Shown here: in pieces, positions 14,690-52,145 of the stretch
Position numbering within the stretch: position 1 is the stretch's first letter
Layout: the number at the start of each line of letters is the position of its first letter
DNA from: Echinarachnius parma
Lineage: Eukaryota; Echinodermata; Echinoidea; Clypeasteroida; Echinarachniidae
DNA length: 64,000 bases
Reading direction: 5' to 3'
Assembly (NCBI GenBank): GCA_037951105.1
Contig: JBAMJV010002074.1
Location: 1 to 64,000 of the forward strand
Translations under genes and position numbers: made by a program
Notes under the pieces: model-generated
What the model saw: only the letters and a program-made list of their open reading frames with translations
Databases searched by the model: none
Told to the model about the DNA's origin: nothing

Positions 14690-15180
14690 AGACAACAAGA
14701 GATCATTTGTGTTGATAATGCCATCCTACATCATGCATCTGTAGCGTCGTTTTTATTTCCAAGTCCAGGGGTGACATCAAAGTTGACCTTTCCTTACATT
14801 CGGCCTTTGGTCCTACTCTGTGTCCAAGTCTGCTGAAAATTAGCCTCGATGCTCAATGTGAATACAGCATGGTCTGCAGTTCCCTAGGCTTAGAACAATG
14901 CAATTGTTTGCGTTGATAATGCAATTATAAATTCTGCAACTGTTATCAGTCATCAAGCCTCAGTATGTCCTCTTTGAATGATTGATGGCCGCCCTTCACC
15001 ATTAGTGTTGATAATGCAATGGTAAATTCTGCATCTGTATCAGTCAGTGGCAAACGTCATCAAACCATCAAAGTATCCTCTCTTTAGAATGATGATAATG
15101 TCATACTCAATTCTGCAACTGTATTGTCAGTGGTAAAAGTCATCAAGCCATCATTACGTGCCCTTAGAAGGATGTCACTT
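14690..15180 (-). repeat. diverged direct repeats in the presumed 3' UTR
   Basis: Units containing TTGATAATGC, AATTCTGCA(A/T)CTGT and GTCATCAA begin near 14,709, 14,910, 15,004 and 15,090 (plus-strand reading). The last one runs into the 18-bp coding repeat near 15,186. A possible AATAAA signal for the minus-strand gene is at 14,752-14,757. Confidence 0.55.
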
Positions 15181-15480
15181 CATCATCAGCATTGATGATG
15201 TCATCAGCATTGATGATGTCATCAAACATGGCCACGGCGTCACTGGCCGTTGCGGTGGAACCACTCTGCGAATGACCCGACGATGGATCCGATGACATGC
15301 TTGGCGCATCGGGGGAGTCGCCCCTGTCCGGGTACGCCCCCAATCCTTGGGGCTCTATGGGAGATGATGAGAGAGAGGAGACGGGTAAGGAAGGAAGGCC
15401 CCTGGAGAACCTAGACAGCCTGAGGGTCTGCAGGATCCGTTTCTGGAGATCCTCTGAGAGGAGAGTGATGACTCCTTGTG
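15164..15480 (-). CDS. exon 19 (last): C-terminal tail
   Basis: The acceptor is TCTGTCCTGCAG. Residues 1,010-1,114 begin QGVITLLSEDLQKRILQTL, continue through a Ser/Pro-rich linker and end in DDIINADDIINADDEVTSF-stop. The DDIINA pair comes from an 18-bp direct repeat. I see no ECM29 similarity in the linker or tail. Confidence 0.75.
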
Positions 15481-18400
15481 CTGCAGGACAGAACAATAAG
15501 CCCCAAAAAAACATTATTAGATTGTTCATGATAATTGTATTTGGTGAAAGGAATAGAGTATAGAGGGTACGTGGGGTAATTAAGGGACTGATTTTTGTTG
15601 AAGTATTGGTTATTTGGTAATGAGGACAGCCATCAATTGCTTCATAATAATTTTTCAGTATGCATTTTAAAAATATAATCTCTAGACCTTTGATAATTAA
15701 TGAGGCTATCAATAATTGACTTGCAATGATGTCGCAGTAAAAATAATTTTAATAAAATAATACAACATGCTATTGTGAGCAACAGCCATTAAGGCGAGAC
15801 ATACATGTAACTCAAATACGGGCATTACAGCACCATAAATGGCTCACAGCGGCGGAAAATCAAGTAGTGCCTCATCTATGTGACACCATCAATCAATAAC
15901 AGGTGCTCATGAAATGTTACTTGTATAGAACTAATCATTTCATTTCAATAGCAAATATAGTTAAATTGAAATAAATGTAATTTCAAACAATTTTGTTCAG
16001 AACAATCGACCACTGATCCTCTGATAATGTGATTGCCTCACAATGATATTTCATTAATATTTTCTTTTTGATTGCAAAAATGTGAGTTTTAAATGCACTT
16101 ATGAATCAAATCAAGTCACAAATATATATGTACATGTATGTATATTATGTTTTGTTTTGTCTTTCATTATCAAGCCACATCTTGTACATTTTCAAAGACA
16201 TGTTTATTGTGTCTGAAACAACATGTCCCTTAAACAACTTTACAAATCAAGAAGCTTACCAACTCTACTGAGTCAAATCTGTCTCTCAAGATATGACAAT
16301 AAAAACAAAATGGAAATGATGCAAAGCAAAGAGAAATAACTGCAAACTTACAATCCCACTGTGAGACAGTCTGCTTGACAATGCTTGCCATTTCTGAAAC
16401 TTGAGGCTGAAAAGAGACATTTAAATAAAGATAATACAAAGATGGTATACAGGGAAACCTGTTATAACAAGGTAGTCGGAACTATCGATTTAACCTCGTT
16501 ATAACCGGAATCTCGCTATAACCGAGCTCGTTATAAACGGTACCTCGTTACAAGCGAACTCGTTATAACGGGGTTTCCCTGTATTATATTAAATCACAGT
16601 GCATCATATCATCATTTGGTGATAATTTAACAAGTATCAAGCCTTTACACATAATATAAATATTATGTACATGTAATATATACAGCTGTGCGTGGTATGT
16701 TGTAAATTATAAGGATATTGCACTTTTCATTGATTGATTGATCCATTTTATTCCAAAAAACAGGTTATAAATCAATTTAAATATTTAGAGCAAATTAATA
16801 ACAAAGATTCAAATTTGGGGAATATTAAGTAAGCTATACATGCATCAGTAAAAGTCATAAGTGCCTTGATACTGCAGTAGATGTATATATGTCTATCAAT
16901 TCATGTACTTGCATATATGTGACCGGCTACATTGAAACCCACCACTTGTCGGAACAAATTTTGAGCTTTATAGCCCGGTCACATATCGACGGATTGCCCA
17001 AAGGGATGTCAAACGGAGAGCTAAATTTTCCATCCGTTCTATACGTTTCTTGTCCGTTCCTTGTCCGGTGATGTACGTTGTTCTATGTTTTGTACATGAA
17101 GCAATGGAGACGATTTTCATCACCGGATAATTTAATTTCGCAAATTGTCTATTCGTTGGGCATACGTTTCCGATATCCGTTGATATCTGACCGAGCCATA
17201 ATATACCTCTTGAACGGGCTATTCATCAGCTTTAATTTGATACCTATTTCATCTAATTTGGATAATATTTGGCAGAGTTATGACAGTTTTATATCTCATA
17301 ATATGTTAAGTTGAAACTGAGATATTGACATTTCAAATATGACAATCACTATTAAAACCATACAGAGTTGTTTTACAAAATCGTGAATATCTTTGCACTG
17401 GATTAATATTTTTTAAATGATTTATTTTGCATTAAAAAGAGCAAACGTTTATCTTGCTGGTTATGTCAAACTGTTCATTTTGACCCTGGGAGTGATTTTC
17501 AACTTTGGAAGCCCATAACTGCAAAACTTATTTACCTACGAGTGGTGGGTTTTGCTATAGCTGGTCACATATATTTATATTTTCAATTGTATTGTACATG
17601 TATGTATACTAATTACCTTGAGATGGTTGCTTTGCCTGAATGTTTCCAGGAGCACAGATAACAATACTGATATTGCCTGTAGAAAAGATAACATTGACAG
17701 AAAGAAAAAATGTTACTTTAAAGGACCTACAGAATACAACGTATGTTGACACTTATTCCATAGTTGAAGACTTGAAACATAGGTATGCCGAAGAAAAATC
17801 CATGAAAATAAACACAGTAGTGATTTAAGACTAGTTTCCTGATGCCAAATCTTACTTAGCAGCCAATTTACGCCCCACCCACATTTAGCGTCCGGAATAG
17901 GCAGCGTGATCGACGTGTGATTGACAATTCATTTGCTTACGTCATGACGCGTCATCTACAGAATTTAGTTCATTAGTCCGGTCTTTAGATGACGTCACAT
18001 TTTGGCGATTTAAAAGGGGCGTTCCCAGGACAATAAGATATTTACTAATACAGTGCCCCCCCCCCCCCCCCCAGGTCCCCATTAGAAATCGATGCTCATT
18101 CCCATTTTGAATAAATCAACATTCTTTTCAGCTTTTTGCCGTGTCCTAGCCACAGATTCTGCACTCCCCGGAGAGCATTCCATCCATATCCATTTACACA
18201 TTGAGTCTATCAACTTACCTCTTGTTCCTCTGAGTTGTTTGTCTTGCTCCTCTCCGCAATGAGGGTGCGTACGGTGCCCCTCAGGTCCCCATTGACCGGC
18301 AAGGATTGACCGAGGGGTGCGGTGGTCTCCTCCAGCCAGGGGTCAAGGGCGGCCGGAGCGGAGGGGCCCTGTAGCGCCGTTGCATAGCAGTCGGCCAGGT

Positions 18401-21400
18401 GGAAGTGGAAAGCTATGTGCTGCTCTCTACTTGGTGCGGAAGTCTACAAAGTATAAATAAAGAAATAATAGTAGTGCTTATAATACTTATAACAGCAACA
18501 ATTAATGATTAACCAAAAAGAGCAGTGAAAATAAATCATATGTTGAGCCTCTGGAAATCTATTTTGATGTGCATAACACAATTGCAATAACAAGTTTTTC
18601 AAATGTTTAAATAAACATTTTTTTTTTCTTTCAGCTCCTATATAGATCTGTAAAAGGCTTAATACAGTTAACAAATATGTTGCCATGGAGATAAAAGGGT
18701 ACATCAACTAACCTTGATTGCGGTCTGCAGGGCTTCCAGCACCAGCTTGCAGTAGGGGAAATCCTTCTCCCCGACCATAGTGTTACCGAGCGCCGAGCAC
18801 GCCTCCTTCTTCACCTCCACCAGGAAGAGCACCGATTCTGCATTGAGAATCTCGCCCAATCTCTGCACCAGGCTCAGCTTCGTCGGACTGTGGGCGCCGC
18901 CGTTGACACTGCCGTTTTTGCTCCGCGTTGAGTCGGTTCCAATGCTCCCGCTTTTGCTCGATGCCGAGTCCCTGCTGGCGCTACTCCCCTTTTTCAAAGA
19001 TGCCTTCCCGTTGGTCTTTCCCCCCTTCGGGAGTGGGATGGGCCCATTGCGTCCAATCTCGCCAATCGCTTTGCACGCCGCCTTCACGATGGTGGGACTG
19101 TTGCTGTCAAGTTTCAATACTGTTTAGCAGAGGGGAGAGAATTTTAGGGGATTAGTAAGAACTGAATAAATACAATAGGAAGCCATTTATAAAGAACCAT
19201 CTGAATCTTTAGTATATTTGGGATACATACAAAATTCCTTCCTAAAATGTATTAATATGCCAGTCTAGTTGTTGGAGCATTTAAAAGTGGTTATACTTTT
19301 GCAGATTTCACGCTTTTCCAGGTACAGCCATAATTTGTCTGTAATTGTTGAGTGTGAATAAAACTTTTACAGTAATGCATTATGGAATAACAAATAATTT
19401 AAAACTCAAGTGCTGCTACATAAGTTGGTTACAAACTATAGAATATGTTGTCTGTGGCATTACTGCAGATGTTTACATGTTTACCCCAATAATCTTTATG
19501 AATGAATCAAGAAATATACAATAATTGATTGATAATAATTAATTATTTAATTAACAGTGCAATCTTTTAGTGGGTTACAGAGAGGAGTATATGTGTAATT
19601 ACCGATGGCTTCTGTGGCCCTCCTGTAGATGTTCTCCTCCAGATGCTGCGAGTCGGTCAGCTTGCTGAAGGTATCTCTGTTGGCAAGGGTCTCCTTCTGC
19701 ATCTGTCTCCCGATGATGAAGCCCAGGGACCAGATCAAGGCTTGGCAACTCTCTGTCGACTGCACATACAAGAATGAAAACCAAAACCAAGGATCAAGAA
19801 AATTAATCATTTTAGTTTGTGATTTCTTACATTCATAGACATATTGATTTTGAAGCCCTGGCTTGTAGAAGGTATCTACAGTGTACCCAATAATTATTTG
19901 GACACCTTGAAAAATCACTTTAATTTAAATGATGCTAGAACAAATTTTGAAGAAAATGTTTGGTAAAAAGCTGCCTAAAATTCATTGTATGTGTTTATTA
20001 GATGCTGCTTTGTTGAAATCAAGATAAAAATTGTTGAAAAATTATCAAAATAGTTAGTTTCCTATTTTTCAGGGTGTCCAAATAATTGTTGGTTACACTG
20101 TATGTTAGCAAGGGTATGTAATGATGGAACCCGGCACCCAGATCACAGCTTGGCAACTCTTCGTTGACTGCAGAGATCAAAATTAATAGATCATTATATA
20201 AAGATATGATTAAGTATTGGTTCTTTCTGACAAAATTTTGGTGACTTTTTCGCTCGGACATCTGAATAAGAATTCCTTCCCGGCCTCCCTCCATGTGCTA
20301 GCATTCTTGTGAAATTCTGATAAAAAAAACATGTTGTCCTTGTCGTGTGGACAGGTAATATGCTCAGGCGATAAATCTTACTCGGGGCTCTAATATCTAA
20401 CCATATACCCGGCAAGAGACTGCTAGTTAACCTATTGACTACGGGAACCAGGTGGGTTGTGTACAAAGTCTATGGAGATTTCAGAATCTCGTAGTGAACG
20501 GGTTAATGGCCGTTAAAAACACTGTGCGAGCAAAGAGTAAACGCATACCACGTTTATAGATTCCCATCATCACACCATACAATCACAACTCGTCACAATG
20601 CATCACCTGCAGGTACGTACACATGGCTCTAAAAAAATGCACCTGGATAGACGGCACACTATATAAATGCTTTGCATAATAACTACTGGAGCTATATAAA
20701 TCAAAATAATACAAATTTGAATGAAATAAAAAAACATAAAAAATGAAATTACCCCTTGGTCCATTCTTGATGTGAATGCGGTGATGGTATCGACCACGAG
20801 GCTAGGGGGTGAGTAGCACAGGACCGCCCCAATCAGCTGGGCAGCATAGAGGCGTATCTCCTCCTCGTCAGAATGTAGCAGCATCTAGAGCAAACATTAT
20901 GGAAAGGAGGATATTGAGATGAGATTAGAACAAGAAGGCAGAAGTAAGGAGGCTAATTTTTTCTGTAAAATATCCCCCCCCTCCTCTGCCTAACAGTAAT
21001 CTGTAATTATTTTACAGTCATTTGCAGTACTTATATATACTGAGATACTTTAGAAATAATGCAAACCTACTTTTCCTACAAACCTAATCCCAAATCTAAA
21101 ATACTACCATAAGACTGAAGTACAATATTAACACAAGGCTTGAAATGAACTTTTGTGGCCCTGTCAGGCATGAAAAAATAGTGACTGGTTAAACTTTTAT
21201 GGCCCAAATCGAGATTTTGGCAGGTCCGGTAAAATAAACAGTCGGTCATTAAAGTTGATTGCCCAACTGGCCAACGCTTAGTCCGAGACCAGATTAAGAT
21301 GGAATGCTTACCTTTAAGCTGTCAACCTTCCTCACAAACTGCTGGGCGAGTTTGTCCGGCGCCATGGCAACCAGCTCCAGAAGCTGGTAGAGGCCGCGCC

Positions 21401-24400
21401 CACCTCCGATGGCCGACACGTACTGCCGCAGCAAGCCCATGTACGTGGCTATGGGCGCCCCCGCATCCCCCGTGTACATCTCGATCTGGTCGTTGACGTA
21501 GTGACTGATGGCGGGACTCTGCTGCACCATCTGGTGGGGCTTGAAGGCGTTGGGCGACACCCCCGCTGAGTAGGCCAGGCACATGCGCAGGTACACCCCA
21601 ACCTGTCGATTGAAAACATGACAATATAGTTGAAGTAAATAAAGATTTTTTAATGAAAAGATCGACGGACATGGGCGTGAACTACCACATTATCTCATAC
21701 TGGCAGTCTTGAAGGCATCATGTGACAACCCAAATGAATACATGTATGCAATGAATTTCTACAGATATAAACAAATATTTGAGGCATAATGACTCTTGTT
21801 GACCGAAAAAAGCAAATATATGGCGTAAATTCTCTAAGCTTTTTTTTCCTTTCAGTGTCTTCTTAATCTAAATCTGCACTTATCGTGAGAATGTGAAATG
21901 TTCTTAGATGCACAGTTTACTGGATGTAGACATGTAAACATTCTGAATATGAAAACATAAATTATGGTCATATATCTGCTATTTAAAACATTGTTTTTTC
22001 TTTATCAAATAGGGTAACAAAAGACATACACTGCATGGAAAATAACAGTTATTTCATCAAAATGAATGGTGATACGTAATGGCAAGAGTACTTACATTTT
22101 CATAGACAAGAGGCTTGAAGGGGATGGTGAAGACCCCCAGAGGTCCCTGTGACTTCTGACTGGAACTCGCTATCCCCAGGTTGTCAAATGCCTGCACAAA
22201 AAAACATCAAATTTAGAACAGTGTAAATGTTAGTCAAAATGTGCCTACAGACCTAGCAGATCATTTATCGAGGAAAAGAATGAAAAGTAATACACCTACA
22301 CCTATAAATATAAAACAAGCTGAACAGATACAGGCTAGCATAAACAAGAACAAAAGTATTGTTTATGAAAAAAAAATTGCTTTAATCAACATACAAAGAA
22401 TAGCAGTTATGGTTGTTCTCGTCATCACAACTTAACCGGAAAAGGTCCTACATCTGGACATTATGATAGCCATCAAAAAGATTTAGTGACTTTTGTTAAA
22501 CAAATATATGATTCATCTTTTAATCAAAAGCAGGCTTGCATAGACATCTTTCCCATGATCATTGATACAAAATATTTATACATTTTAAAGACTTTTTACA
22601 AAATTAACAGCTGTTAGGCACTCTACATAATACAATCTAACCTGTTAAATGTGCAACTAACCTAAGGGATGTGGACAAGAGCTGTAATGGTCTTTGAACA
22701 GACCAGTTAATTTACATACAAATTGTCTACATTGTCAAAATTACAGGCGGTCACAAAATAAATCACACAAGTTACCAGAGGACTGCCCCCCTGCTGTAGC
22801 TATCGCTATAGATGTGTGGCCTTGGGCTAATGAATGGGAGATAGGCGCCGCCTTACGTGACAAAATTGGCACTTTTTTTTAATGATTACCTTTTGCCTGA
22901 TGAAGTTGATGACCTGTGGGAATGGGGGGAGCATCTTGCCCGTGGGAGTGTCAGACTCCATGTCCATCTCTGCTAGTCTCGCCTGCCTGCTGATGATGTT
23001 TGTTGCCTCTGTCCTAACCACCTCTGACCTGGGAAACGTTACAAAATTATAGAAAAGAAATTTATTTTAAAAAGGTGTGCAATTAATAGGCCCACAACAG
23101 ATTGTACAATATACATTTTGTATACATATTATATATCTGTTCTCTTGTGAATAATGTTTTATCTATTTCTCCAAATGTTGCTGTGTCAGGCAGGTAGGAT
23201 GTAGGCCTATGAGGTTTATATTAAACTTGTGGCTCCTTACAGTAATCCCCAACATACATTTTCAATAACAGTTGCCGATGACCTTTTGGGTGAAACAGTC
23301 TGTCTAACTGTATAATATGTAGTGTACAATATAGTAATCTGTAATTTTTATTTTAAACTGATATACCCCAAACTGTTGAGCACTATAAATGTTGTAGATT
23401 AGTGCCCTGAAGTATAAGGATTCATGATTAATCGTAAGACTAATCATTCTATCAATTCATCAATCGTGAATCAATTATGTTATGAGGCCATGATAAGGCT
23501 TATCATTATTTCTTTATTGTGGTTTGTACATGTCATACACCTACTCAAATTTTAAACTATAGATTTGGTGAAATCTTATAAATAAATTAGAGAATTAATT
23601 GAATAGGTGACTTACTCATCCCCACATGCTGATAATAGGGTGTACTTGGAGGCAATGTGATTGCCAGCGAATGCTGTAGCAGCATACTGCACAGCCATCA
23701 ACCTGGCCTGGGGAAGTTCCTGTGATAGAGATGAGTGAATGAGAGGGTATTGGAATATATCAAATAAGAAAATACCACTCTTATTATAATTATGTTATGT
23801 ACAGATATTTTAATATCGTTAAACATTTATTAAAGGATGTTGCTAAAAGAGAATTTATATAGTTTTCATGAGTGGATCAGTACTTACAATCTAGTCATAA
23901 CAATACACTGGTATTTGTTTATAGATTTTATTAAGTTGCCTCCATTGTTGCAAACTGTACAAATACATAACTGTATCATAATGTTCAAAGATCTTTTTTG
24001 GTCAGAATGACAGCCTGAGTTTGTATTAACGATAACTACAATAACAACAAATGTTCCACCAGTTTTAAAGCCTTACATGACTGGCTAATCCCGGCCCCTT
24101 AACTTCTGCCTGCAATGTCAAACATCATTTGTGTAATGCGGGGGGGGGGGGGCATTCCTATTGGAAATTATAGAAGTAGATTTTCTTTCAAATATCATTG
24201 CTATAGAAAAAAAATGCTCATCATATTCAGATCCAATGTAAAATTCTTTACAAAAGTCAGTTTAAAAATATACAACTTTTTGAAGTAAATATTATACTGA
24301 AAATCAATTAGAAAAAGTATCAATGATTGTGGTAGCAAGTTCCTTACCTTGTCAATGTTGCCTACGACCAGCATCTCCACACTGCGGACCTGTGGCGGGG

Positions 24401-32902: not shown

Positions 32903-32940
<38 letters not shown>

Positions 32941-35900
32941 ACTCACGTATATTGGGTATACGGGGGATGTGCCGCTGGGAAGGGTGACTTTTTCAAGAAA
33001 GATCCTTAGACATGGGTCCCCTTTTCATTAAAAAAATCCTTAGACATGGGTCCCTTTTTAAAATTTCCTCTCTTTTATCCGGGATTTTGGGATTTGCCGA
33101 TGCGAAATTGCAAAAATGTTCAAGCTCGCTACGCTCGCTAAAAGAAACCACAAAATTTGCGGGAAATAAACAGCGAACATGCGACGCTGGCGAAAAAAAA
33201 TCCTGAGACATAGGTACCTATTTACAGCAAAAGGACCCTTAGATGTGGGTATGGGTTCGGAGGTCTCAGCTGCACACCCCCATCCGACTATAATCTGAGT
33301 ACCCCCCCCCCCCCCCCCCGGGGTGATGCATACCATTATCACATAAATATTCTCAGTTTGATGTGTCACCAAACCTGAAATCTGGGTCATGTCATCACAA
33401 TATTCAATTCAATTTCACTCCTTTTAAAATAAACCTGGCATCAGTGTTTGTATGGTGAAATTCAACCATTTTATTTGGGTCAACAAAAATTAATTTAGTG
33501 CCAAAAATATCACACAAAAATGCATTTTTGAGTCAAGGACTTTTCTTAACAACATCATTATGCCCTAGATTTCACTTCCTTATTGTTGGAGACATATCTT
33601 TCAAAATGTATCTAAATTCTCATTTTTAAGATTTTAAAAGTACAATGCTGATGCAGATAGAATGTTTAATATTTGTCATTATCAATTTGTGACAAATGCT
33701 TACAATTATTTGATCACACAGTTGTGTAGACAATGCACAGCACTTCTCATAAAAAAATCACTTCAACATCACTGTGTGATTTAAAGCGCAGTAGAGTATA
33801 TATTTATAGTAATGTAGCTGCACTAGATAAATGTTCATATTAATAAACTTCACCAATGTTTCTTGCTCCATTCAAAGAATCTATTAGTTTTAATTCAACA
33901 ATTGTTTCTTGCTTTGTGTTATAATGTTTAAACAAAAGAGTCAAATGTATTACCTAGCCCTCCATAATTTTATTTGTATGTATGTCCAAAGGTTGGTTTA
34001 CCAACAGTTTTCAAGAAATACAAAATCAATTGAATTGTAATGCACATAACAATCAAGCATACATGTATGAACAGTGTGTGTCTCATGATTGGGGTAATGA
34101 AGTAAAGCACTTAGAGATGACTATCAATCTAGGCGCTATATGAATCGAGATCAGTATCATTACAACATTATTTTTTATTCCAACATTAATCAGTGCTGAA
34201 TTGGTTGATACTAACCTCGTTGCCTGCCGCATCTTGGTTTCCTGACCGTCCCTCATCCTTGGTAGCAAAGTCGGTTACCTTGGCAACCAGGTTGTCCGTG
34301 AGCGCAATGTTCCTCACCCCAAGACTGTGCCGTACAATCTAGTGTGAGAAATGCATAAAGTAGCAATGCTGTTATAAATCATTTATATATTATAAGTGAA
34401 GCTCGAAATTAGCAGCACGGGCCTGCTTACATGTGGCCAATACATAAATCAGAATAAGGCCACCAAATTTGATAGATGATTAATTACGATGAATGGGCAA
34501 CCAAATGTAACAGAATTGTTAATTTATGTTTTTCTTTGTTTGGGTCACCAGATTCAGGTTTGGGGCCGCTAGAATTTAGATCTTGTTTAAACCTGCCCGA
34601 CTGGGCCACATGGCAAACTAAAAACAATAACTAGAATTGGTATGATATAATACAGTATGTATACAACTATACATGCAACAACATATTATCAATAAAAATA
34701 CCTACAAGGTGATCTTGTTTCATGAGGTTTTTCCAAAAAAAGATAATTAAGACTTCCATCATACACCAATATCATTGTAATATTCCTCTGAATGGTGTGG
34801 GATAGTTTTTATAGAAAAAGAACACTGTTTTACTAGTGAACACTGAATTTCTAAAAAAATATTTCAGATTACTGCCCATTGATTTTTTACTACAATTCAA
34901 TCATATTATACCTCCATAAGTAGGGAGACATCTGAAAGAATCAAAGCCAATTGCATGCTTACCATAATAACTAAATAACAAGGTACAAGAGAAATATGGA
35001 AGATCCAAGTGATTTTGATTCAATTTGACACAGTTAATGGATCACTTTAAGAGTAGAATTTAAATAAGTCTGCCAATACTCAGCATACATGACAAGAAAT
35101 GTCATTATTTACATTTGCTGTGATATGCTTTATTCTCCCCGCAGTATGTATACCATAAGATTTTATACTTCATCATAAAGCATCAAGATGATAATAACAT
35201 TTATTGATGAGAAAACAACATAAAAAATGAATTGTTATCTGGAAAGCACTTTTATAAAAAAAGAAAACACTTAAACACAAAATATCTGGTTAGTTATAGC
35301 GACATGGTTTACCAATGGACTAAGCATGTAGGGCAAAGTAATTAAGCCAGTTCAAGTATTAGGTCATCTACGTACAGTCATATCAGACATGATAAACAAT
35401 AATACAAATATTTCAGTTCCTTTGACAATTCCGCTTTTTATCAATATCAGGCTCTAGATAGACTAACTTAGGTGGGGCCCAAACAAAAAAAAGTTGCCTA
35501 TTCTTTTCAAAGGAATGTAGCATTCACAGATCAGTAGCAATCTCGAGGGGGCGTGTTGTGACGCAGATGTTTACAAATTTTATGTTAAATGCTGATTTAT
35601 CCACTATTCCATTCAAGGATATTTGATTTTAAAGAGTGCCACGTAATTAACTGTATCATTAACCATAAAACAAACATTGTCTTTTATGGACTATAATTAA
35701 TTAATTATGCCAGGTACTGTATCTGGAATAACAAAAGACCTGGGAAAAAATTGACTATGTCCTTTTATACAGATGGATGTACATGTACATGTATTGTGAC
35801 AGGATAGGATGATTGCATGCTTCTGGGCCTTGGGCACAGAGTCATAGAACCTTACAGAAATATAATGTGCGTAGCGAGCTTAATTGGCAAGTTCTGCTGA

Positions 35901-38900
35901 AATTGTGAGAGTGCGGCAGTTTGTTAGCGTGTCATTTAACGTGCGGTAATAGTACACAAGCTTAATTTCAGCACAGATTACTAGCTAGTCGCAAGCTTGA
36001 GACACACTTATTATATTTCTGTAGGGATGGTTTAGTTCCACTCTAGGTCTATTTTATATGCTAGGGCTAATAGTAAGCAATATATACAGTTTTCTTAATA
36101 ACTTTATATATTTAACTGGGTAAGCATTTATTATTTAGGGTTAGCAATTAAGCCAAGTTTAATTGCAACTAAAATAATATATACATTTCATATTTAGCCC
36201 TGCATCTAAAATAGACTAAGAATGGAACTGGGGAATATGGGACTAAGAAAATTTACAAGGCCCTAATATTCATGTGGAGTTGTTGCATTTCGGGTGCTTT
36301 GCTTCCATTCTTGGGGTCCCATGTTAATAAATGTTAAACTGCTGGCATGGACATCCTTCAGCAAGACATTTAATTCACATTGATGCACTAGCTGAACCCA
36401 GTGGCCTGTTTCATGAAAGGGTCGATCTTAGCTAAGACCATCTTAACTGTCACGTGACTGTGACTGATCTACGGACATACGGATGGCGTTTGTTCCGATC
36501 ACAAAGGACAAGGTTGCTGGAAGTATAATAGCAAAGACGCTTTCATACAACATGTGTTGCCGTAAATGTCAAAGTTATACTAAGGTTGTGTACGTACAGA
36601 GATTAGACCCTTTCATGAAAGGGGGCCCAGGTGTAATGGGGACCTGGTTGGTATTTTGTCCTTGATATGATTTTTGCACCTTATCAGGGCAGTTTATCCA
36701 TGTCGCATCCACTTTTCACTGGAGTTGGGGTAATGAAAAGCAATTAACTATCATTGCTTTTAAAAAGGTGATATTCAAATGCTAATTAACATCTCACCAC
36801 AAATAAATAAAACAAGGTGTCAACAAGTAAAACAAAATATTCATGACTTACTCAAACAATAATCTGTTATTGTTGTTAATTAATTTAAATTAAGTATCTT
36901 AATTCATACTAGGTACCCTGCATAATTGCAGTCATGTTAACCTCTAACCCCAAATCAATAAAAACTGCCTAACAAAAACTATATAAATGGGAGTCCATTG
37001 ACTCATTAATGTCTAGATACATGCATGCATGTACATTATAATGACAGGTTTTGTTCTAATTACAATGCTAGCCCAATTCAACACGCACAGGGTGATAGAG
37101 ACCTTTATAATCATGACATTGACATCTCGGTTATTACATGCATATGATCCAACCAAAATCAATACTGAACACAGTGGCCTTTAAACAGTTTGTAGTGCTC
37201 TTGTTTGTGAGGGAAGTCTGGCATAAAAATTATTTGTCTGTCAAATCACAAATTAATTGTTTACGCTCGCCCACAGCGGTATGATCGGGTCACACATGAT
37301 TGGCAGTGCATGCATTTAGTATAGTAATATGCCGCTGCGAGCTTCCTGCATGAACAAATGTAGCGCTTTATCACAAGTACATCGTGTGTACATATTATGC
37401 ACGTATACCAATGTCAAGGAAATTAGATGTATTAAAAAGAAACCAAATATTGTTTTAGGGGTATTATAAATTAAATTACAAACATGCAGCCCCTCCCAAA
37501 TTAAGATATATGATTGTGTTTAGTGCAGTCTTAAATGTCTATACCTCAGTGTGTATGCAATATGCGCTAGAAATTAACTTTTTTCGCCGGACTAGCAGGC
37601 CTGTTAGTGCTATATAATCACAAGCATTAAGAATAGAGAAAATTACAAAATTTAACTATGCATTTGATTTTTATAGTTAAATAGACTAACAAGATTTTTT
37701 ACAAATCGTTGGTTGAAAAAAGAGAACAGAACTATATAAGTAATGTTTGTACAAGTTTGTAAGTATTTGAGATAATCGTGTTAACCCGTTTTCTAAAATA
37801 TCCATAGACTTTGTACACAACCCACTCGGTTCCCGTAGTCAAGGGATTAACAGTAAAGAGCTATCATATTTAATACAGCACTAGTTTATATAACGTAGTT
37901 ACAAGTTAGATATCTATATTCTCGAGAAAAAAAAAGGTTTTAGATGCAAAACATATCACTTACCCTCTTAGAGGCCAGGTGGGACAGGCCTGAAGCGATG
38001 TCCAGCGAGAACTTGACCAACATGGGCATGAGCGGCGTTGTGATGTTGAAGTCTGCTGCGTGCATGCCCACGGGTTTGTGGACGTCCCGCATCGTCCGCA
38101 GGTAGACGTCCAGTCTGACAGGCTCCATACTCTCAAAGGCAAGATAGATTGGACCTAGTGGAGGGTGAACAAACAATCATTAATCATAAGATTCATGCCA
38201 TATATTATTTAAAATGCAAAAAACGATAGTGCACATGTATGTAAGTCAGAGAAATCCTTACTTATAAGAACCGTAAACCGGGGTGACTTTGGCCACTTTT
38301 TTAGATGCATGTATTTTCATCAAGCCTCACTTTTTAGAACAAATTTCTTATTGTTACAAATATATTCTTAAAGGGTAATGTATAAAATCAGATATTAATT
38401 CTAAAGAGTGAAAAGTGATGACAATATAGCCTTCTCAAAACGCGGCCAAAGTCACCCCGGTTTACGGTACATAATTACATAATAGTTGTGGCCACATTCA
38501 TTTTTACTTTGAGTTTGAAGATTCCTGTTTCATATTTAATTGTTAAAATATTGGGTCTAAATTATTGGAGCTGTGTCTTTGTATGATTTGATAGTTTCTT
38601 TATTTAGATGATTGAGCAATATAAAAGGGCAAAACGGAGAGTACGTTTCCTTTGGTTTCCCAAAACTACCATGGGCCTCATATAACAAATATGCAGAATT
38701 ACAAGGGCGATGATCCACACCTTATTCAATCATATAAATCAAATAACAAAAGAAGAGTATATTTACTTATATTTGTTTACTCTTGGCTGGACGCTTGATT
38801 TATATATATATATAGATTCAATTTTGTTTTATTCTATAACTCTTACTTCACAAATATGTATTTGCATCATTTGTAAGGTAGAATGACCACTAGCTTCACA

Positions 38901-41900: not shown

Positions 41901-44900
41901 GGGAAGTGCCCCGTTCCGTTATTTCTGGGCCACCCTGTATATATTACTCAAAATATATAAAATGCGATGTGATGACCAATGCCTTGGTTATTATGTGCGA
42001 TCTCCCACAAGACGGAAAAGTTTGTCATTATTTTCCCATATATAGGGGAATACTACAATTTTGACATTCTTATTATAATTATAACTATAATTAGTATTAT
42101 CAATTTCCTTTTTATAATCATTAATATTATCATTATCATATAACTGCTCCCCAATGATGGAGCTACCTTGTCCTATAAAACTAATGACCATCGTTGCCAT
42201 GAGAATTAAATTATATATTCATACATCATTGATAATGACTTTGTAAAATGCTTTTCAGGCAATTATGAAACAACTTTTGTCAAAAATCAAATCGTCAATG
42301 TGTATGTACAAATTATAGTGGGTAGGAAGAGATGTTGATATATATTGTACCCATCTTACATCAGTCTGGCCTATAGTGGCAACAAAGTTATCTATTCTCT
42401 ATAATATATGATAGGCACTTCATCAATACTAGGAATTAAATTTTTCCACTTGTGGCCCAGTAGGGCAAGTAAATATCTAGATTTTTTTCATTTGAGTGGC
42501 CCGTAACCTGTATCTAGTGCCCCAAAACAAAGAAAAACATTTCAAATTTGTTTATTGATCACCCATTTTAGGGAAATGAAATTTAGCATTTTTAAATCTT
42601 GGCGGTCCGAAGCTAGTTTTAAATGGTCGCGGCACAGGTGGTCATGTGCTGATTTCGAGCATATTACTTCAAATTTAATGCAAAAATTAACGTTAAATGA
42701 ACATACCTGATGATCGTGTGCAAGCTCCAATGAGACCGAGGATGTTGCTGTGCCGACTCGCTCTAGTAAGGATACCCAACTCTGCCAGCATTCGCTTCTT
42801 ATCCGCTGGTACTAAAGAATAAAAAAAAGTAAAGTCACATTTTAAGTCAAAATTAACCCCTTGCTAAAAACTGACCCTGGTATGCTACATTGTATGTTCA
42901 AAGGGAACAGGGTTAACGGAGGAATTGTGAGATTTTGTAAAGTGTTAATTGTCTTTTGTATGCAGTTGATAAGGAAATCTCATGACGTGATTCCATCGCT
43001 TAGAGAAAACCGCTTCTCAGGGTCTGACAAGCGGTATGATATTTCAGGTCTCAAGCCTGCATCGAGTAGATTTGTATCACTGTTGACATTTTCTTATCAC
43101 TAGCCCCTCTCTCTGTGATAGCACTGGGCCTCTGGGGGGCAGTTAACACAGCTGGGATTGTTGACAGTAGTTGATAAAACTGTCAGAAACTGATAAGAAT
43201 GTGACCGAGTTGATTACCACGATGGTGGAAATCAACGATAGAATCACCTAATGAATCATAATTTTCTTCATTTCTATTTTCTGCAGTTAATAATTGAGTG
43301 ACATTGTTTAACGGTTCTTAAAAAACACATCTAAAACTCAAATTTTGAAATATACACATTTTGAACAATGTTTCATTGTCTTCATTCCATATTTATTCCA
43401 TTTGTTTCTAGTCAGCTTTTCCTGGTATTTATATGCATAACACACAGCAACTTCTAAGGATAAAGGAATATCAAATACATAATCTTGAAATCCAAGACAG
43501 TGATTACTATGGTGGTTGAATCCAATAATGGTATCTTAATTTTAGATTGTATAAATGATATATATAAGATACATATTAAAACAATTAGACATAATTATGC
43601 TATGAAAGAGGAAATATACTACATAATATGCTCAGAAAACATGGTTAATGGAAAAGTGTTTTGTAGTTTACACAGTATTTGATATAGAATACACTTAGAG
43701 CCAGACCTGCATTATAGGCCTGGGACGAATACATAATTTGCCATTCGAATATTCAACAAGAAAGGTATTCGGAAAGTTTGTTTTCTTATTTTATTACGCT
43801 GCACCCTATGTAACAGTCTGAAAACTATAAATAAAAAAAGTAAAGGAGCCCTGTATATACTCTTACTAAATTAATGTGGATTGTTTTAAATATATAATAT
43901 AACAAAACACTACAAAACAAACTTGCTTCAATGTGTTGATAACTCTTTAATTCAATCACATTTTAGATATACAAAATTTATACATACATTATCGTATAAA
44001 TAAACATATCGTGCCAGGGATTTTAATGCTCTATGGCATTTGTGTGTATTGTAACTCGCAAAAATGCGAGCTTGGCAAGTTAGGAGTTAAACAAATATTA
44101 AACTGTAGCTATCGGGTGCACACTTTTTAAAACTCAAATGTTTGAATAGTATAGTAAAAAAAAGCTCAGCTATTTGAATTATTTGAATATTCAAATAGTT
44201 GTCCCAGGCCTAATTAGTGACCACCTATCTAAAGAGGTCGCCTCACTTGTGGGAGTCAACAAGTAGTCACTTTTTGTGTCTCTGATCGGGGGATGGTCAC
44301 TATAGTCAACTGTGACTGCATGAATTGCCACAGATTTGAATGTTGAAAATAGCTTTCATGAAATATTAAAGAAAAAGAAGTAGCATTTATAAGTTCTGAA
44401 ATAAAAATGATGACATAAATTCTTACCTTTTTGTTTCTTGACGTCAGCACTGACAGACTGCTGGCTGCTGAGGAACACCTTGCCAAAGTGCATCTGACCG
44501 AACCTGCCCGACTGCTTCACGTTGCCGACGACGAGCTTCTCCCTTGGGATCTCCCAGAAGCCCTGTCCTCCAGGACCATCCGGCCTGTCAATGCCCAGGG
44601 CCATGGCGGAGACCGAGGGGTTGGCTGGGAGCCCTTCGCCCGGCTGCGACTCAACATCAAAGGTGACATTGTCCTGCGGGAGAGATTGAGTTGAGTTAGT
44701 GGCAGAGAGACGGCGACGGGCCTTGCGGCCACCCAAGCCGAAGATCTTTGAGAGAGACGAGCTCTTGCCGGGGAAGCGCCGGAAGATGTTGAGGCTCTGC
44801 AGCGAGGAGCTGCGCTTCATCTTAACGCTACCGTTACCGTTCATGTCCCCGTTTATGTGTCCCCCATTCATGCCGAGTTGCGTCTGTCCCGCATTAGAGG

Positions 44901-44988
44901 ACCTCAACACACTGTCATCAACACTCATTTCAATCCGGTTTGGATTCCCGGCAATACCATTTGACCTGGAGTGGCGACTCCGCGACAT
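15164..44988 (-). CDS. pseudokinase-ECM29-like HEAT-repeat chimeric protein (19 exons)
   Basis: Nineteen minus-strand exons (listed separately) join with matching phases to 3,345 nt, or 1,114 residues plus stop. Residues 1-157 are Ser-rich and polar with no signal peptide. About 158-434 is a tyrosine-kinase-like domain: glycine loop SGRFGQMHFG, Lys184, helix C Glu198, DFA and WMAYE in place of DFG and WMAPE, SNVWSLGVMIWE, and EPAERP. The HRD motif is R289-H290-S291, so the catalytic Asp is lost and the protein is probably a pseudokinase. About 435-1,000 matches in order a central part of ECM29, the HEAT-repeat scaffold of the 26S proteasome (YLRMCLAYSAG, KAIGEIGRNGP, FIIGRQ). ECM29's N- and C-terminal thirds are missing. 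An acidic tail ends the protein. A role linking signalling to proteasomes is inference. Alternatives are two genes or a pseudogene, but the absence of stops and frameshifts argues against both. Confidence 0.85.
16352..16406 (-). CDS. exon 18
   Basis: Acceptor TCTCTTTTCAG and donor ATT/GTAAGT. The 55 nt encode residues 992-1,009 (PQVSEMASIVKQTVSQWD) and end in phase 1, as exon 19 requires. Confidence 0.65.
16450..16581. mobile_element. 132-bp MITE with CAGGGAAACC termini
   Basis: CAGGGAAACC at the left is mirrored by GGTTTCCCTG at the right, with TA on both sides. Internal TCGTTATAA units repeat. This fits a Tc1/mariner or pogo-type MITE in the intron between exons 18 and 17. Confidence 0.75.
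16914..17573. mobile_element. MITE carrying a nested second MITE
   Basis: The outer ends TATATGTGACCGGCTAC and GCTATAGCTGGTCACATATA are inverted repeats that also share the CCCACCACT sequence. The inner block, about 16,971-17,200, has its own ends GCCCGGTCACATATC and GATATCTGACCGAGCC. A relative of the inner element is at about 55,987-56,155. Confidence 0.65.
18060..18075. repeat. poly-C tract
   Basis: A run of C follows CAGTG in the intron between exons 18 and 17. It is one of many long G or C homopolymers in the window. Confidence 0.9.
18219..18443 (-). CDS. exon 17 (end of ECM29-like region)
   Basis: Acceptor ACTTTGTAG and donor GAG/GTAAGT. The 225 nt are phase 0-0 and encode residues 917-991. 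QHIAFHFHLADCYATAL followed by AALDPW aligns with the ECM29 segment that reads roughly IELQFTIGEAI...AARDAW. Similarity fades after this point. Confidence 0.85.
18713..19119 (-). CDS. exon 16 (ECM29-like HEAT repeats with insert)
   Basis: Acceptor CTGCTAAACAG and donor AAG/GTTAGT. The 407 nt encode residues 781-916. KAACKAIGEIGRNGPIPLP is the strongest ECM29 match in the gene. A low-complexity Ser/Lys/Gly insert of about 50 residues comes next, then ECM29-like KLSLVQRLGEIL...GEKDFPYCKLVLEAL. Confidence 0.92.
19603..19759 (-). CDS. exon 15 (ECM29-like)
   Basis: Acceptor TATGTGCAG and donor G/GTAATT. It covers residues 729-780: STESCQALIWSLGFIIGRQM then ENIYRRATEAI, matching the ECM29 stretch LALGFTVGRYL...ATETIG. 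A decayed copy of this exon lies upstream in the gene at 19,858-20,169. Confidence 0.9.
19858..20169 (-). pseudogene. decayed duplicate of exon 15, split by a MITE
   Basis: 20,103-20,169 repeats the start of exon 15 with its acceptor (CTGCAG then TCAACGAAGAGTTGCCAAGC), and 19,858-19,876 carries the piece with GAAGGTATC. The frame reads STKSCQAVIW and meets a stop after about 19 codons, so it is not a usable exon. A TA-flanked MITE sits between the two parts. Confidence 0.8.
19879..20100. mobile_element. 222-bp Tc1/mariner-type MITE
   Basis: The ends are CAGTGTACCCAATAATTATT at the left and a near-perfect mirror ending GGTTACACTG at the right, each bordered by TA (19,877-19,878 and 20,101-20,102). 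The inverted repeats extend about 30 bp. It has no open frame. Confidence 0.88.
20427..20506 (+). repeat. short TTAA-bounded MITE, copy 2 of 4
   Basis: It opens TTAACCTATTGACTACGGGA, has the core GTACAAAGTCTATGGAGATT and closes GAACGGGTTAA. It is the most complete of the four copies. Confidence 0.65.
20753..20884 (-). CDS. exon 14 (ECM29-like)
   Basis: Acceptor GCTCTAG and donor GGG/GTAATT. The 132 nt are phase 0-0 and encode residues 685-728 (MLLHSDEEEIRLYAAQLIGA...). They align with the ECM29 segment containing KEEMRELAALFYS. Confidence 0.88.
21312..21602 (-). CDS. exon 13 (ECM29-like core)
   Basis: Acceptor ATCGACAG and donor AAG/GTAAGC. The 291 nt are phase 0-0 and encode residues 588-684. 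VGVYLRMCLAYSAGVSP, ATYMGLLRQYVSAIGG and LLELVAMAPDKLAQQFV match ECM29's YLRMCLAHSAGVVP, IYIGLLQQLLAGVGG and LLEAVSVYPEKLATKFV. This exon makes the family assignment secure. Confidence 0.95.
22096..22191 (-). CDS. exon 12 (ECM29-like)
   Basis: Acceptor TTTGTGCAG and donor AAT/GTAAGT. It covers residues 556-587 in phase 0-0. The end, VFTIPFKPLVYEN, matches the ECM29 stretch VLPFNPAAFGEI directly before YLRMCLA. Confidence 0.9.
22890..23028 (-). CDS. exon 11 (ECM29-like)
   Basis: Acceptor TTTCCCAG and donor AAG/GTAATC. It covers residues 509-555. The end, LPPFPQVINFIRQK, corresponds to ECM29's MPSFPEMVYYIQEK. Confidence 0.9.
23616..23719 (-). CDS. exon 10 (ECM29-like)
   Basis: Acceptor TCTATCACAG and donor GA/GTAAGT. 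It covers residues 475-508: RLMAVQYAATAFAGNHIASK then YTLLSACGDE, matching ECM29's [20 protein letters not shown] and LLLLAAGD. Confidence 0.93.
24348..24467 (-). CDS. exon 9 (first ECM29-like exon)
   Basis: Acceptor TCCATCTACAG and donor AAG/GTAAGG. The 120 nt are phase 0-0 and encode residues 435-474 (DKETRAEVFSVLEQLSDNHG...). It aligns weakly with the ECM29 segment containing PETRLAIQEALSMM. Its phase fits kinase exon 8 exactly. Confidence 0.88.
24838..24943 (-). CDS. exon 8 (end of pseudokinase domain)
   Basis: Acceptor CTACTGCAG and donor CAG/GTAAGC. It covers residues 399-434: YEIIQSCLKLEPAERPTLKS then VARLARRYQCIKLQ. The C-L-x3-P-x2-RP pattern is kinase subdomain XI. The exon has no stop and ends at a clean phase-0 donor, so the kinase is not the end of the protein. 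Confidence 0.93.
25285..25381 (-). CDS. exon 7 (kinase subdomain X)
   Basis: Acceptor TTGTTGCAG and donor GT/GTAAGT. It covers residues 367-398 (GREPFEGYRADELSGRLTEG...), the usual kinase stretch G-x-P-F/Y-x-G...L-x-x-G-Y. Confidence 0.92.
25731..26215. mobile_element. foldback MITE with arms of about 200 bp
   Basis: GGCCTGAATTCTCATCAGTG...GCCTGGCCTAAAAAGACA at the left is mirrored by TGTCTTTTTAGGCCAGGC...ACTGATGAGGATT at the right. The loop is about 25,946-26,009. The arms differ by small changes only. It lies in the intron between exons 6 and 7. Confidence 0.88.
26285..26325 (-). CDS. exon 6 (kinase subdomain IX)
   Basis: A 41-nt exon with acceptor TATTCTAG and donor G/GTGAGT. With the GT from exon 5 it reads VWSLGVMIWETMSF, the tyrosine-kinase DVWSFGVxxWE motif, with Asn in place of the preceding Asp (SNVWSLG). 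Confidence 0.92.
26609..30536 (+). mobile_element. full-length non-LTR retrotransposon (LINE)
   Basis: An intact ORF (27,241-30,492) is preceded by about 630 bp of less AT-rich leader and followed by a short tail TGATTAAACAAATAAGAAAA. GCCTGTA on each side (26,602-26,608 and 30,537-30,543) is a plausible 7-bp target duplication, though short. It is inserted antisense in the host-gene intron between exons 6 and 5. Confidence 0.75.
27241..30492 (+). CDS. endonuclease-reverse transcriptase of a LINE
   Basis: This single 1,083-codon frame encodes what a LINE needs to copy itself by target-primed reverse transcription. Residues 14-270 form an apurinic/apyrimidinic-type endonuclease (LACWNIRTML, ALSEVR, LGDFNARVG near 165, TDHRLV near 261). 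About 500-800 is the reverse transcriptase: VTFVDLTKAFDT near 640, GVKQGCVLAPTLF, and the catalytic ELLFADDAALVA near 762. A C-terminal region follows, then a C2HC finger (CNRCGRTC...HQRAC, about 1,053-1,075). There is no stop or frameshift, so the copy is young or still active. It resembles the many animal proteins labelled craniofacial-development-protein-2-like, which are LINE products. I cannot fix its clade. Start choice: the first ATG gives a frame beginning just before the endonuclease. No separate ORF1 is seen. Confidence 0.95.
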   Translation: MRHSPASKGDTGHGLNLACWNIRTMLDLKDSGRPERRSALIAHELLRLNIDIAALSEVRLPEEGSLKEHGAGYTLFWSGKPASERRLSGVGFMLRDAIASKLESTPTGHTDRIISLRLPLRNKQYATLFSVYAPTLQADPVEKEKFYTDLRNLLGSTPAEDKIFILGDFNARVGQDSEAWKGVLGKHGVGNCNDNGRLLLEFCAEQQFSITNTTFQQKDRLKTTWMHPRSKHWHLIDYILVRQRDLSDVLHTRVMPSAECHTDHRLVRCKLKLHFKPRPRRGGPPRKKLKIADLQSTEVKADFQENLQSKFEDSYQTNQSPEELWDQLKNVILQTSEEVLGFTTKKNKDWFDENNQEIQQLLAKKRSAHQAYLNDTSCTAKKCAFRLSCSNLQRKLREIKNEWWAKLAEKTQQCADSGDYRGFYEALKAVYGPSHQVLSPLRNADGDTLLTDKTDILSRWAEHFQTLFSTDRTVQEPALLQIQQLRVKTELDVIPTLEEITKAIKQLKTGKAAGTDSIPSEIWKYGGPGLHTKLHELFVCCWEQGKLPQDLRDAVIITLYKNKGEKSDCSNYRGITLLSTAGKVFARMLLNRLVPAIADDLLPESQCGFRANRSTTDMVFVLRQLQEKCREQNKGLYVTFVDLTKAFDTVSRKGLWQILEKVGCPPKFLNMVIQLHDNQRGQVRQRNDLSESFPIDNGVKQGCVLAPTLFTIFFSMMLQRATKDLTDQDGIYIRYRTDGSLFNLRRLQAHTKTLEKMICELLFADDAALVAHTEEALQHMTTCFAEATHLFGLEISLKKTEVLYQPSPQEQHDPPHVTIDTAELKTVHQFTYLGCTITSDAKIDKDIDSRLAKASTAFGRLHKRVWKNKHLKKDTKISVYKAVVLTTLLYGAESWTIYRRHIRLLERFHQRCLRSILNIHWSQFVTNNEVLEQARAISIEAMLLKTQLRWVGHVSRMDDHRLPKVVLYGELSTGHRDIGAPKKRYKDNLKKSLGACHIDHREWSSLAADRNAWRQTVKQAVSSFETDRRAHLEDKRTKRKNRIASASTPDKTFPCNRCGRTCLSRIGLVSHQRACNRRGHCPS
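30862..30938 (-). CDS. exon 5 (kinase subdomain VIII)
   Basis: Acceptor GTTTAATTTGAACAG and donor GT/GTGAGT. It covers residues 328-352, including SSARWMAYETLVFNTYTEKS. It corresponds to the tyrosine-kinase P-x-(K/R)-WMAPE segment, with Tyr in place of Pro (WMAYE). Confidence 0.92.
31065..31140 (-). pseudogene. decayed duplicate of exon 5
   Basis: An acceptor TGTTTAATGTGAACAG, nearly the same as exon 5's, precedes PTAPSDARSVAYDILAFN-stop. Compare STLPSSARWMAYETLVFN in exon 5. Homology ends near the stop and no donor is seen. It lies between exons 4 and 5 and is probably a dead tandem copy. Confidence 0.8.
31395..32190 (-). repeat. GATCCATTAAC-family repeat, copy 2, split by a MITE
   Basis: The flanks 31,395-31,498 and 31,915-32,190 match the reverse of copy 1 (6,645-7,080), ending ...TTAATGGATCA. 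The TTAA-type MITE at 31,499-31,914 interrupts it. Confidence 0.55.
31499..31914. mobile_element. TTAA-flanked MITE, about 416 bp
   Basis: TTAAAGGGATATTTGAGTTT at the left is mirrored by AAACTCAACTATGCCTTTAA at the right, giving inverted repeats of about 30 bp with TTAA at both ends. This suits a piggyBac-type non-autonomous element. A worn reverse copy is at 11,411-11,895. Confidence 0.8.
32899..33323. mobile_element. element bounded by poly-G and poly-C tracts
   Basis: A run of 36 G (32,904-32,939) then TACTCA opens it. TGAGTA then 18 C (33,302-33,319) closes it. So the termini are inverted repeats made of a homopolymer plus TACTCA. GTGATGCA occurs on both sides (32,891-32,898 and 33,323-33,330), which suggests an 8-bp target duplication. 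Inside, ATCCTTAGACATGGGTCCC repeats. No gene. Confidence 0.65.
34095..34160 (+). repeat. SINE/LINE 3'-tail fragment
   Basis: AAAGCACTTAGAGATGA followed by GGCGCTATATGAATC matches the tail of the SINE at 10,545-10,920. Confidence 0.55.
34216..34338 (-). CDS. exon 4 (catalytic loop and activation segment)
   Basis: Acceptor ACACTAG and donor GAG/GTTAGT. It covers residues 287-327. IVRHSLGVRNIALTDN stands where active tyrosine kinases have (V/I)HRDLAARN: the HRD triad is RHS, while Asn296 is kept. VTDFATKDEG stands for the DFG motif, with Asp309 kept and Gly changed to Ala. Confidence 0.92.
34735..35060 (-). repeat. GATCCATTAAC-family repeat, copy 3
   Basis: It contains CATACACCAATATCATTGTA and AACAAGGTACAAGAGAAATA and ends TTAATGGATCACTTT, matching copy 2. 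Confidence 0.55.
35850..36025. mobile_element. 176-bp MITE
   Basis: CCTTACAGAAATATAATGTG at the left and its near mirror TTATTATATTTCTGTAGG at the right are terminal inverted repeats. No coding content. Confidence 0.6.
36029..36236. mobile_element. inverted-repeat element next to the preceding MITE
   Basis: TTTAGTTCCACTC...GTCTATTTTATATGC...AGGGCTAA at the left is mirrored by TTAGCCCTGCATC...AAATAGAC...GGAACTGGGG at the right. The middle is AT-rich. Confidence 0.55.
36404..36626. mobile_element. inverted-repeat element, about 220 bp
   Basis: GTTTCATGAAAGGGTC at the left is mirrored by GACCCTTTCATGAAA at the right. The short open frame at 36,483-36,665 crosses its end and is not a gene. Confidence 0.5.
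37781..37850 (-). repeat. short TTAA-bounded MITE, copy 3 of 4
   Basis: It is the reverse orientation of the copy at 20,427: it starts TTAACCCG, carries CCATAGACTTTGTACACAAC and ends AAGGGATTAA. Confidence 0.6.
37964..38154 (-). CDS. exon 3 (kinase hinge and helices D-E)
   Basis: Acceptor CCACTAG and donor AGG/GTAAGT. It covers residues 223-286: PIYLAFESMEPVRLDVYLR is the hinge region and KFSLDIASGLSHLASKR is the receptor-tyrosine-kinase-like helix E before the catalytic loop. Confidence 0.93.
38271..38467. mobile_element. 197-bp MITE
   Basis: CCGTAAACCGGGGTGACTTT and its exact mirror at 38,448-38,467 are the termini. The middle is AT-rich. It lies in the intron between exons 2 and 3. Confidence 0.85.
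38740..40215. repeat. diverged tandem repeats of about 180 bp, at least four copies
   Basis: Units carrying CTCTTGGCTGGAC, ATAGATTCAATTT, CAAGGTAGAATGAC and GGTCAGTTACCAT recur near 38,760, 39,660, 39,860 and 40,030, with partial copies between. All are in the intron between exons 2 and 3. Confidence 0.6.
40712..41035 (+). other. unrecognised 108-codon open stretch before a T tract
   Basis: The frame (MDSALLLKPLHFVKRYIDD...) has a fairly protein-like composition in AT-rich intron sequence and runs into a tract of about 25 T. I recognise no family and no splice-site support. It may be a transposon-derived fragment. Confidence 0.2.
41388..41937. mobile_element. 550-bp palindromic mariner-type MITE
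   Basis: CAGGGTGGCCCAGAAATAAC opens arms of about 230 bp that are almost perfectly mirrored at the right end, with TA on both sides. The loop, about 41,620-41,720, contains the only unique sequence. It lies in the intron between exons 2 and 3. Confidence 0.92.
42707..42811 (-). CDS. exon 2 (kinase helix C region)
   Basis: Acceptor TTATTCTTTAG and donor G/GTATGT. It covers residues 188-222: DKKRMLAELGILTRASRHSN then ILGLIGACT. Glu198 is the likely helix C glutamate, and RHSNILGLIGAC matches the kinase HPNIVxLLGxC segment. Confidence 0.93.
42990..43245 (-). repeat. dispersed repeat, reverse copy of about 9,240-9,480
   Basis: Both contain GAGAAGCGG, GTTAACTGCCCCCC and a GGTGGAAATCAAC motif. 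They are diverged and the boundaries are unclear. Confidence 0.45.
43715..44212. mobile_element. MITE with TAGGCCTGGGAC termini, about 500 bp
   Basis: TAGGCCTGGGAC at the left is mirrored by GTCCCAGGCCTA at the right. Just inside both ends are CGAATATTC or GAATATTC motifs. It lies in the intron between exons 1 and 2. Confidence 0.65.
44427..44988 (-). CDS. exon 1: N-terminus and start of pseudokinase domain
   Basis: The ATG at 44,988 (context CTAAAAATGT) has an in-frame TAA 15 bases upstream, so it is the true start if no upstream coding exon exists. Residues 1-157 are polar with Ser/Arg-rich stretches (RSSSLQSLNIFRRFP). The kinase part begins WEIPREKLVVGNVKQSGRFG and ends at ADVKKQK, where Lys184 fits the ATP-anchoring lysine. 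The donor is G/GTAAGA. No signal peptide or membrane segment is visible. Confidence 0.88.
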
Positions 44989-46780: not shown

Positions 46781-46784
46781 TGTT

Positions 46785-47350: not shown

Positions 47351-47425
47351 CTTCTCATCTTGATAGTAAACTAGCGTACAAGATTTGTAATGGGTTCTGA
47401 AAACATGTTATTCATAGCAACCTTA

Positions 47426-52140: not shown

Positions 52141-52145
52141 TCACT
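52072..52145. repeat. CAC/AAC-rich trinucleotide repeat
   Basis: Imperfect ACC, ATC and AAC units. On the minus strand one frame would read Gly/Val/Asp-rich, so a coding role as mucin tail cannot be excluded but is unproven. Confidence 0.7.

Follow-up and report, generated by a model that had tools for sequence, protein, structure and literature searches.

A predicted gene of Echinarachnius parma joining a tyrosine-kinase-type pseudokinase to the middle part of ECM29

In the present study, we analyzed a 64-kb stretch of DNA from Echinarachnius parma, hereafter called the window, which corresponds to positions 1 to 64,000 of contig C2073, and found a gene model in which a tyrosine-kinase-like domain lacking its catalytic residues is followed in the same reading frame by a segment resembling the middle of ECM29. 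The genome searched comprised 1.2 Gb on 14,790 contigs. Bindin (PF02084) was matched twice, on a single contig, with E 1.2e-33 for the better match, as would be expected of an echinoderm. The reading that we prefer, with a probability of roughly 0.4, is that this is a genuine protein-coding gene composed of a tyrosine-kinase-type gene and a duplicate of the middle of ECM29, the product of which acts as a non-catalytic adaptor. According to this reading, a tyrosine-kinase-type gene would have become fused to a copy of the middle of ECM29 that arose by duplication at the DNA level, giving a product of approximately 1,134 aa that would consist of a basic N-terminus, an FGFR/VEGFR-like pseudokinase, ECM29-type ARM/HEAT repeats, and an acidic tail. 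The pseudokinase may dock on tyrosine-kinase signaling complexes, perhaps switched by a nucleotide, and the ECM29-derived arm may hold proteasomes or other partners of ECM29 at those complexes, or compete with ECM29. An adaptor is the most economical reading because the pseudokinase and the ECM29 segment are both maintained, as described below.

The gene lies on the minus strand (44988..15164), and its 20 exons translate in the window as a single open frame of 1,134 aa closed by a TAA stop (Table 1). All of its introns, which range from 269 to 4,552 bp in length, are of the GT-AG type with consistent phases, and an in-frame stop is located 5 codons 5' of the start ATG. A preliminary description had given the same coordinates with 19 exons and 1,114 residues; its coordinates and its claim of consistent phases without an internal stop hold in the present model, whereas its exon count and protein length were slightly short. 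That description had also placed a tyrosine-kinase-like domain and the middle of ECM29 in one gene, and both Pfam domains were recovered by HMMER with high significance.

Table 1. Exons of the fusion gene and the intron at its junction, with positions in the window.
Feature	Position	Strand	Content
Exon 1	44427..44988	-	start codon, basic/Ser-rich N-terminus, Gly-rich loop (aa 159-164), beta3 Lys K184
Exon 2	42707..42811	-	alpha-C helix region, Glu E198 retained
Exon 3	37964..38154	-	kinase-like
Exon 4	34216..34338	-	RHSLGVRN for HRDxxxxN (aa 289-296), DFA for DFG (aa 309-311)
Exon 5	30862..30938	-	AYE for APE; Asn for alpha-F Asp (last full codon)
Exon 6	26285..26325	-	kinase-like C-lobe
Exon 7	25285..25381	-	kinase-like C-lobe
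Exon 8	24838..24943	-	kinase-like domain ends; donor phase 0
Intron 8 (fusion junction)	24468..24837	-	370 bp; common to three contigs
Exon 9	24348..24467	-	ECM29-like part begins; aligned to the final portion of canonical ECM29_N
Exon 10	23616..23719	-	ECM29-like
Exon 11	22890..23028	-	ECM29-like
Exon 12	22096..22191	-	ECM29-like
Exon 13	21312..21602	-	ARM_ECM29 starts (aa 599)
Exon 14	20753..20884	-	ARM_ECM29
Exon 15	19603..19759	-	ARM_ECM29
Exon 16	18713..19119	-	ARM_ECM29 ends (aa 802); corresponding part split in the canonical gene
Exon 17	18219..18443	-	ECM29-like
Exon 18	17617..17676	-	ECM29-like; following intron without counterpart in the canonical model
Exon 19	16352..16406	-	ECM29-like
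Exon 20	15164..15480	-	final ECM29-like residues, then Ser-rich and acidic tail, TAA stop

Regarding the kinase-like half, hmmscan against Pfam assigned aa 159-424 to PK_Tyr_Ser-Thr (169 bits, E 1.6e-49), and aa 1-434 matched 1,334 distinct solved sequences, among the best 60 of which the first was an EGFR chain, which matched twice, and the rest were FGFR2, FGFR4, and VEGFR2. This part aligns over its full length with receptor tyrosine kinases of the FGFR/VEGFR class (best 60 of the 1,334); unlike them, it has no catalytic Asp, no DFG Gly, and no activation-loop Tyr. In the alignment with FGFR2, RHSLGVRN stands in place of HRDLAARN, DFA in place of DFG, AYE in place of APE, and Asn in place of the alpha-F Asp, and the loop between DFA and AYE contains no tyrosine; the names of these motifs follow the motif table in the part of PMC7586955 that was consulted. 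The features of an active tyrosine kinase, namely, the HRD Asp, the DFG Gly, the alpha-F Asp, and the activation-loop Tyr, are thus all missing, and the term pseudokinase, which had been used in the preliminary description, is borne out; judged from its sequence, the domain is a pseudokinase. The third copy of the gene, described below, has QHS at the catalytic-loop site where the gene in the window has RHS. Three residues are retained, namely, K184 (beta3 Lys), E198 (alpha-C Glu), and the Asp of DFG, so that nucleotide switching is perhaps possible.

HER3 is a receptor, as are EphB6 and EphA10, whereas no transmembrane segment is apparent by eye in the model of the fusion protein, which is probably cytosolic. 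Similar to the fusion protein, these three pseudokinases have the catalytic-loop Asp replaced, and a scaffold or allosteric role is regarded as likely for them in the consulted part of PMC7586955. In a search of the genome with the kinase half, 30 matches were obtained, and those outside the copies of the fused gene were 24-39% identical, the two best being located on C4816 and C5339 (30% over aa 146-424); we take the match on C4816 to be ROR-like from its appearance. No close kinase-only parent was present among the 30 matches; this search scored 97 of 131 candidates, exon by exon, and a spliced distant parent would score low, while a close parent would not easily be missed.

The other half carries ARM_ECM29 (PF23702) at aa 599-802 with 200.7 bits (E 2.8e-59; profile positions 1-212 of 212; cut-off 27), and its similarity to ECM29 extends from exon 9 (aa 435) to approximately the start of exon 20. 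ECM29_N (PF13001) and HEAT_ECM29 (PF24492) had no match in the 1,134-aa protein at E 0.01, in agreement with the previously claimed absence of the end parts of ECM29, and exons 9-10 align with the last part of ECM29_N. The ECM29 half had no match at E 0.01 among solved structures. Similar to ECM29/KIAA0368, a proteasome adaptor and scaffold, the fusion protein thus has ARM_ECM29 over the full profile; it differs in the pseudokinase that precedes the ECM29-like part and the acidic tail that follows it, in the two ECM29 families not found, and in its low identity, as set out below.

A separate ECM29 gene, for which a check had been proposed, was detected on contig C7007, the exons of which match all three ECM29 Pfam families. 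In profile searches of the contigs, all 5 matches of ECM29_N and all 3 of HEAT_ECM29 were on C7007, and the 9 matches of ARM_ECM29 comprised 3 on C7007 and 2 each on C2073, C3675, and C5236. On C7007, the matches span 73457 to 36474 in collinear order on the minus strand, with some stretches of the profiles lacking a match, and this canonical gene is likely to be complete. The canonical gene also carries partial copies of its own exons (C7007:46500-50900 and 54488-63030, minus strand); a HEAT exon, for instance, occurs eight times between 50814 and 49379, a stretch over part of which TRF reports a period of 186. Most of the later copies have no acceptor and look like decaying duplicates. Canonical ECM29 matches were confined to one contig, while the fused gene is present in three copies.

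The middle of the canonical gene was modeled exon by exon, with a small exon before cH missing and a partial codon dropped there, and 181 of the 585 pairs aligned between this model and aa 435-1066 of the fusion protein were identical (31%). The alignment score was 568, while 200 shuffles gave a mean of -106, a standard deviation of 20, and a maximum of -46, which indicates that the likeness to ECM29 is not due to chance. Exons 9-20 are separated by 11 introns, 8 of which share both column and phase with introns of the canonical gene; those after exons 15 and 16 have the canonical phase but lie 12 and 4 columns away, respectively, where the alignment contains gaps, and that between exons 18 and 19 has no canonical counterpart. 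These shared positions are not fully independent evidence because the gene of the window was in view when the exon borders of the canonical gene were drawn by eye, and because four canonical donors (after cA, cC, cF, and cJ) depart from the common GTRAG type. Based on the 31% identity and the shared introns, the ECM29 half is best interpreted as the product of an old duplication, at the DNA level, of the middle part of the canonical gene. A retrocopy or processed pseudogene is ruled out by the 20 exons, the intron positions shared with ECM29, and purifying selection.

The gene is not confined to the window. Contig C5236 carries exons 1-20 without an indel, with AG at 19 of 19 acceptors and GT at 19 of 19 donors. 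Exons 7-18 (12 of 20) are present on C3675 with acceptors and donors likewise intact, exon 7 being near the contig end, and exons 1-5 are present on C3939, where exon 5 is 1.4 kb from the contig end and four amino-acid changes without gaps were observed (last base of exon 1 left out). C3675 and C3939 are probably one broken third copy, in which exon 6 was not seen on either contig. A tblastn search at E 1 over all 56,635 bases of C3675 gave no match after aa 1011, although the contig continues beyond that point, suggesting that exon 20 (105 aa) is absent there, while exon 19 (18 aa) could have escaped the search. Over exons 7-18, differences per 1,934 sites were 25 between C5236 and C3675, 31 between the window and C5236, and 30 between the window and C3675; three copies at nearly equal distances cannot all be alleles of one diploid, and one of them may have duplicated recently, or sequences of several individuals may be pooled in the assembly. 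With the whole gene found again on C5236 and the junction between exons 8 and 9 also on C3675, the assembly join that had been considered earlier was not observed, and a chimeric assembly is ruled out by the presence of the junction on three contigs.

Intron 5 harbors the frame of a non-LTR retrotransposon with an endonuclease and a reverse transcriptase (27160-30492, plus strand). C5236 has no megablast match longer than 300 bp across 26216-30698, yet exon 6, which lies inside this interval, is present there, and the insertion thus seems to differ between copies.

The comparison of copies shows that both halves are maintained as protein. Between the window and C5236, over 1,134 codons, dN/dS was 0.061 (Sd 36.5, Nd 7.5, dS 0.047, dN 0.0029; binomial p 5e-16), with values of 0.027 for exons 1-8 (p 1e-6) and 0.076 for exons 9-20 (p 9e-12); between the window and C3675, it was 0.021 over exons 7-18 (p 5e-16). 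In megablast-aligned introns, mismatches amounted to 1.7% (338/19,563) for C5236 and 3.0% (145/4,909) for C3675, and those in exons to 1.3% and 1.4%, respectively; intron mismatch is lower than dS, presumably because poorly aligned introns were left out, and the claim of selection rests on dN/dS.

The foremost alternative, which we consider somewhat unlikely, is that the fusion is expressed, but that its ECM29-derived repeats have acquired a new partner, the protein being a pseudokinase scaffold without a role at the proteasome. The low identity to the canonical copy and the two ECM29 families without a match are in line with this alternative, and selection on both halves fits it equally well. 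On the other hand, the fusion protein scores higher on ARM_ECM29 than the partial canonical model (167.2 bits, with 13 profile positions and one small exon missing), which suggests that residues typical of the family have been retained. At 31% identity, the ECM29 piece is a divergent paralogue, the proteasome contacts of which may be lost, and proteasome binding is not to be assumed; a contact of the fusion protein with proteasomes and its control by the pseudokinase would both be inferences from sequence. A further reading, namely, a signal-gated recruiter in one chain, the pseudokinase of which would sense or join FGFR/VEGFR-type complexes while the ECM29 segment would bring, hold, or inhibit proteasomes there, is regarded as doubtful.

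Yeast ECM29 has been described as a quality-control factor of the proteasome that binds Rpt5 of the regulatory particle and the alpha7 tail of the core particle (consulted part of PMC4908598). The fusion protein may be a competitor of canonical ECM29, a truncated piece that would occupy shared partners at times set by the pseudokinase. It contains the middle of ECM29 without its ends, and the canonical gene is present in the same genome, as expected for a competitor; however, the same part of PMC4908598 does not assign parts of ECM29 to partners, and we regard this possibility as quite unlikely.

The junction itself bears on whether the two halves are expressed together. In the canonical model, the position corresponding to the start of exon 9 lies within a longer coding exon, and the donor, acceptor, and phase of intron 8 are common to C2073, C5236, and C3675. 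Upstream of exon 9, the frame is closed by a stop after five codons with no ATG in between, and aa 435-455, which precede the first Met (aa 456), align with canonical ECM29; exon 9 must therefore be spliced to a phase-0 donor, the nearest being that of exon 8. The fusion is predicted to be expressed as one mRNA. A kinase-only isoform would be compatible with intron 8, which contains three AWTAAA motifs in its 370 bp, compared with 56 in 26,420 bp for the introns as a whole. If exon 8 is read through, the 17th codon is a stop, and the 51 nt concerned are identical in the three copies; mismatches in this intron (2/370 with C5236 and 4/369 with C3675) are also below the intron average. Two products, with a kinase-only transcript ending in intron 8 and a fused form that is minor or absent, nevertheless appear to be improbable: exon 9 lacks an independent start, the acceptor and reading frame of this exon are preserved in all three copies, and exons 9-20 are themselves under selection.

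Upstream of the fusion gene, on the minus strand at 52000-64000, the window contains a separate large cell-surface gene with a very long Thr/Ser-rich mucin-like exon, SEA (E 2.9e-6), EGF-like, and FN3 (E 3e-9) domains, and a transmembrane exon recognized by eye. Between the two genes, at approximately 46579-49779, there was no megablast match longer than 300 bp on the part of C5236 examined, which is probably an insertion difference. The exons at 52-64 kb may be considered as the ectodomain of a receptor with a pseudokinase-ECM29 tail, given that the mucin-like gene is next upstream on the same strand and its transmembrane exon has a donor. This is very improbable: the ATG of exon 1 is immediately preceded by the in-frame stop, the transmembrane exon has a phase-0 end, which does not fit the three acceptor-like AGs listed within exon 1, as these would require phase 2 for a join without intermediate exons, and by eye a phase-0 acceptor leading to a stop is located approximately 340 bp past the transmembrane exon. 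An unexpressed pseudogene or an assembly join, as may be suspected from a truncated copy of a known gene with a retroelement in intron 5, is scarcely credible, with the junction on three contigs, a frame open across 20 exons, dN/dS of 0.02-0.08, and GC3 of 64% in one half and 70% in the other, compared with 36% GC in the introns, and there is no sign of the pseudogene that the preliminary description had allowed for.

In the titles and beginnings of abstracts consulted on ECM29, pseudokinases, and the sea urchin kinome, no report of a kinase-ECM29 fusion was found. The main text of PMC7586955 does not contain the words HEAT, ECM29, or proteasome, and that of PMC8662651, on the holozoan tyrosine kinome, does not mention ECM29 or HEAT. 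An automatic annotation of the fusion gene may exist in echinoderm gene databases. Within the literature consulted in this manner, the gene represents a union of known domains for which we found no report.

ECM29 has been shown to link proteasomes to motors, vesicles, and the centrosome (consulted part of PMC8155528). The local placement and regulation of proteasomes are an open question, in which ECM29 is one known placement factor, and a protein maintained by selection in which an ECM29 segment is combined with a pseudokinase would suggest the coupling of signaling and proteasome placement. Taken together with the adaptor reading, the fusion may directly link cell signaling to protein destruction, and it offers a testable handle for assigning the parts of ECM29 to their partners.
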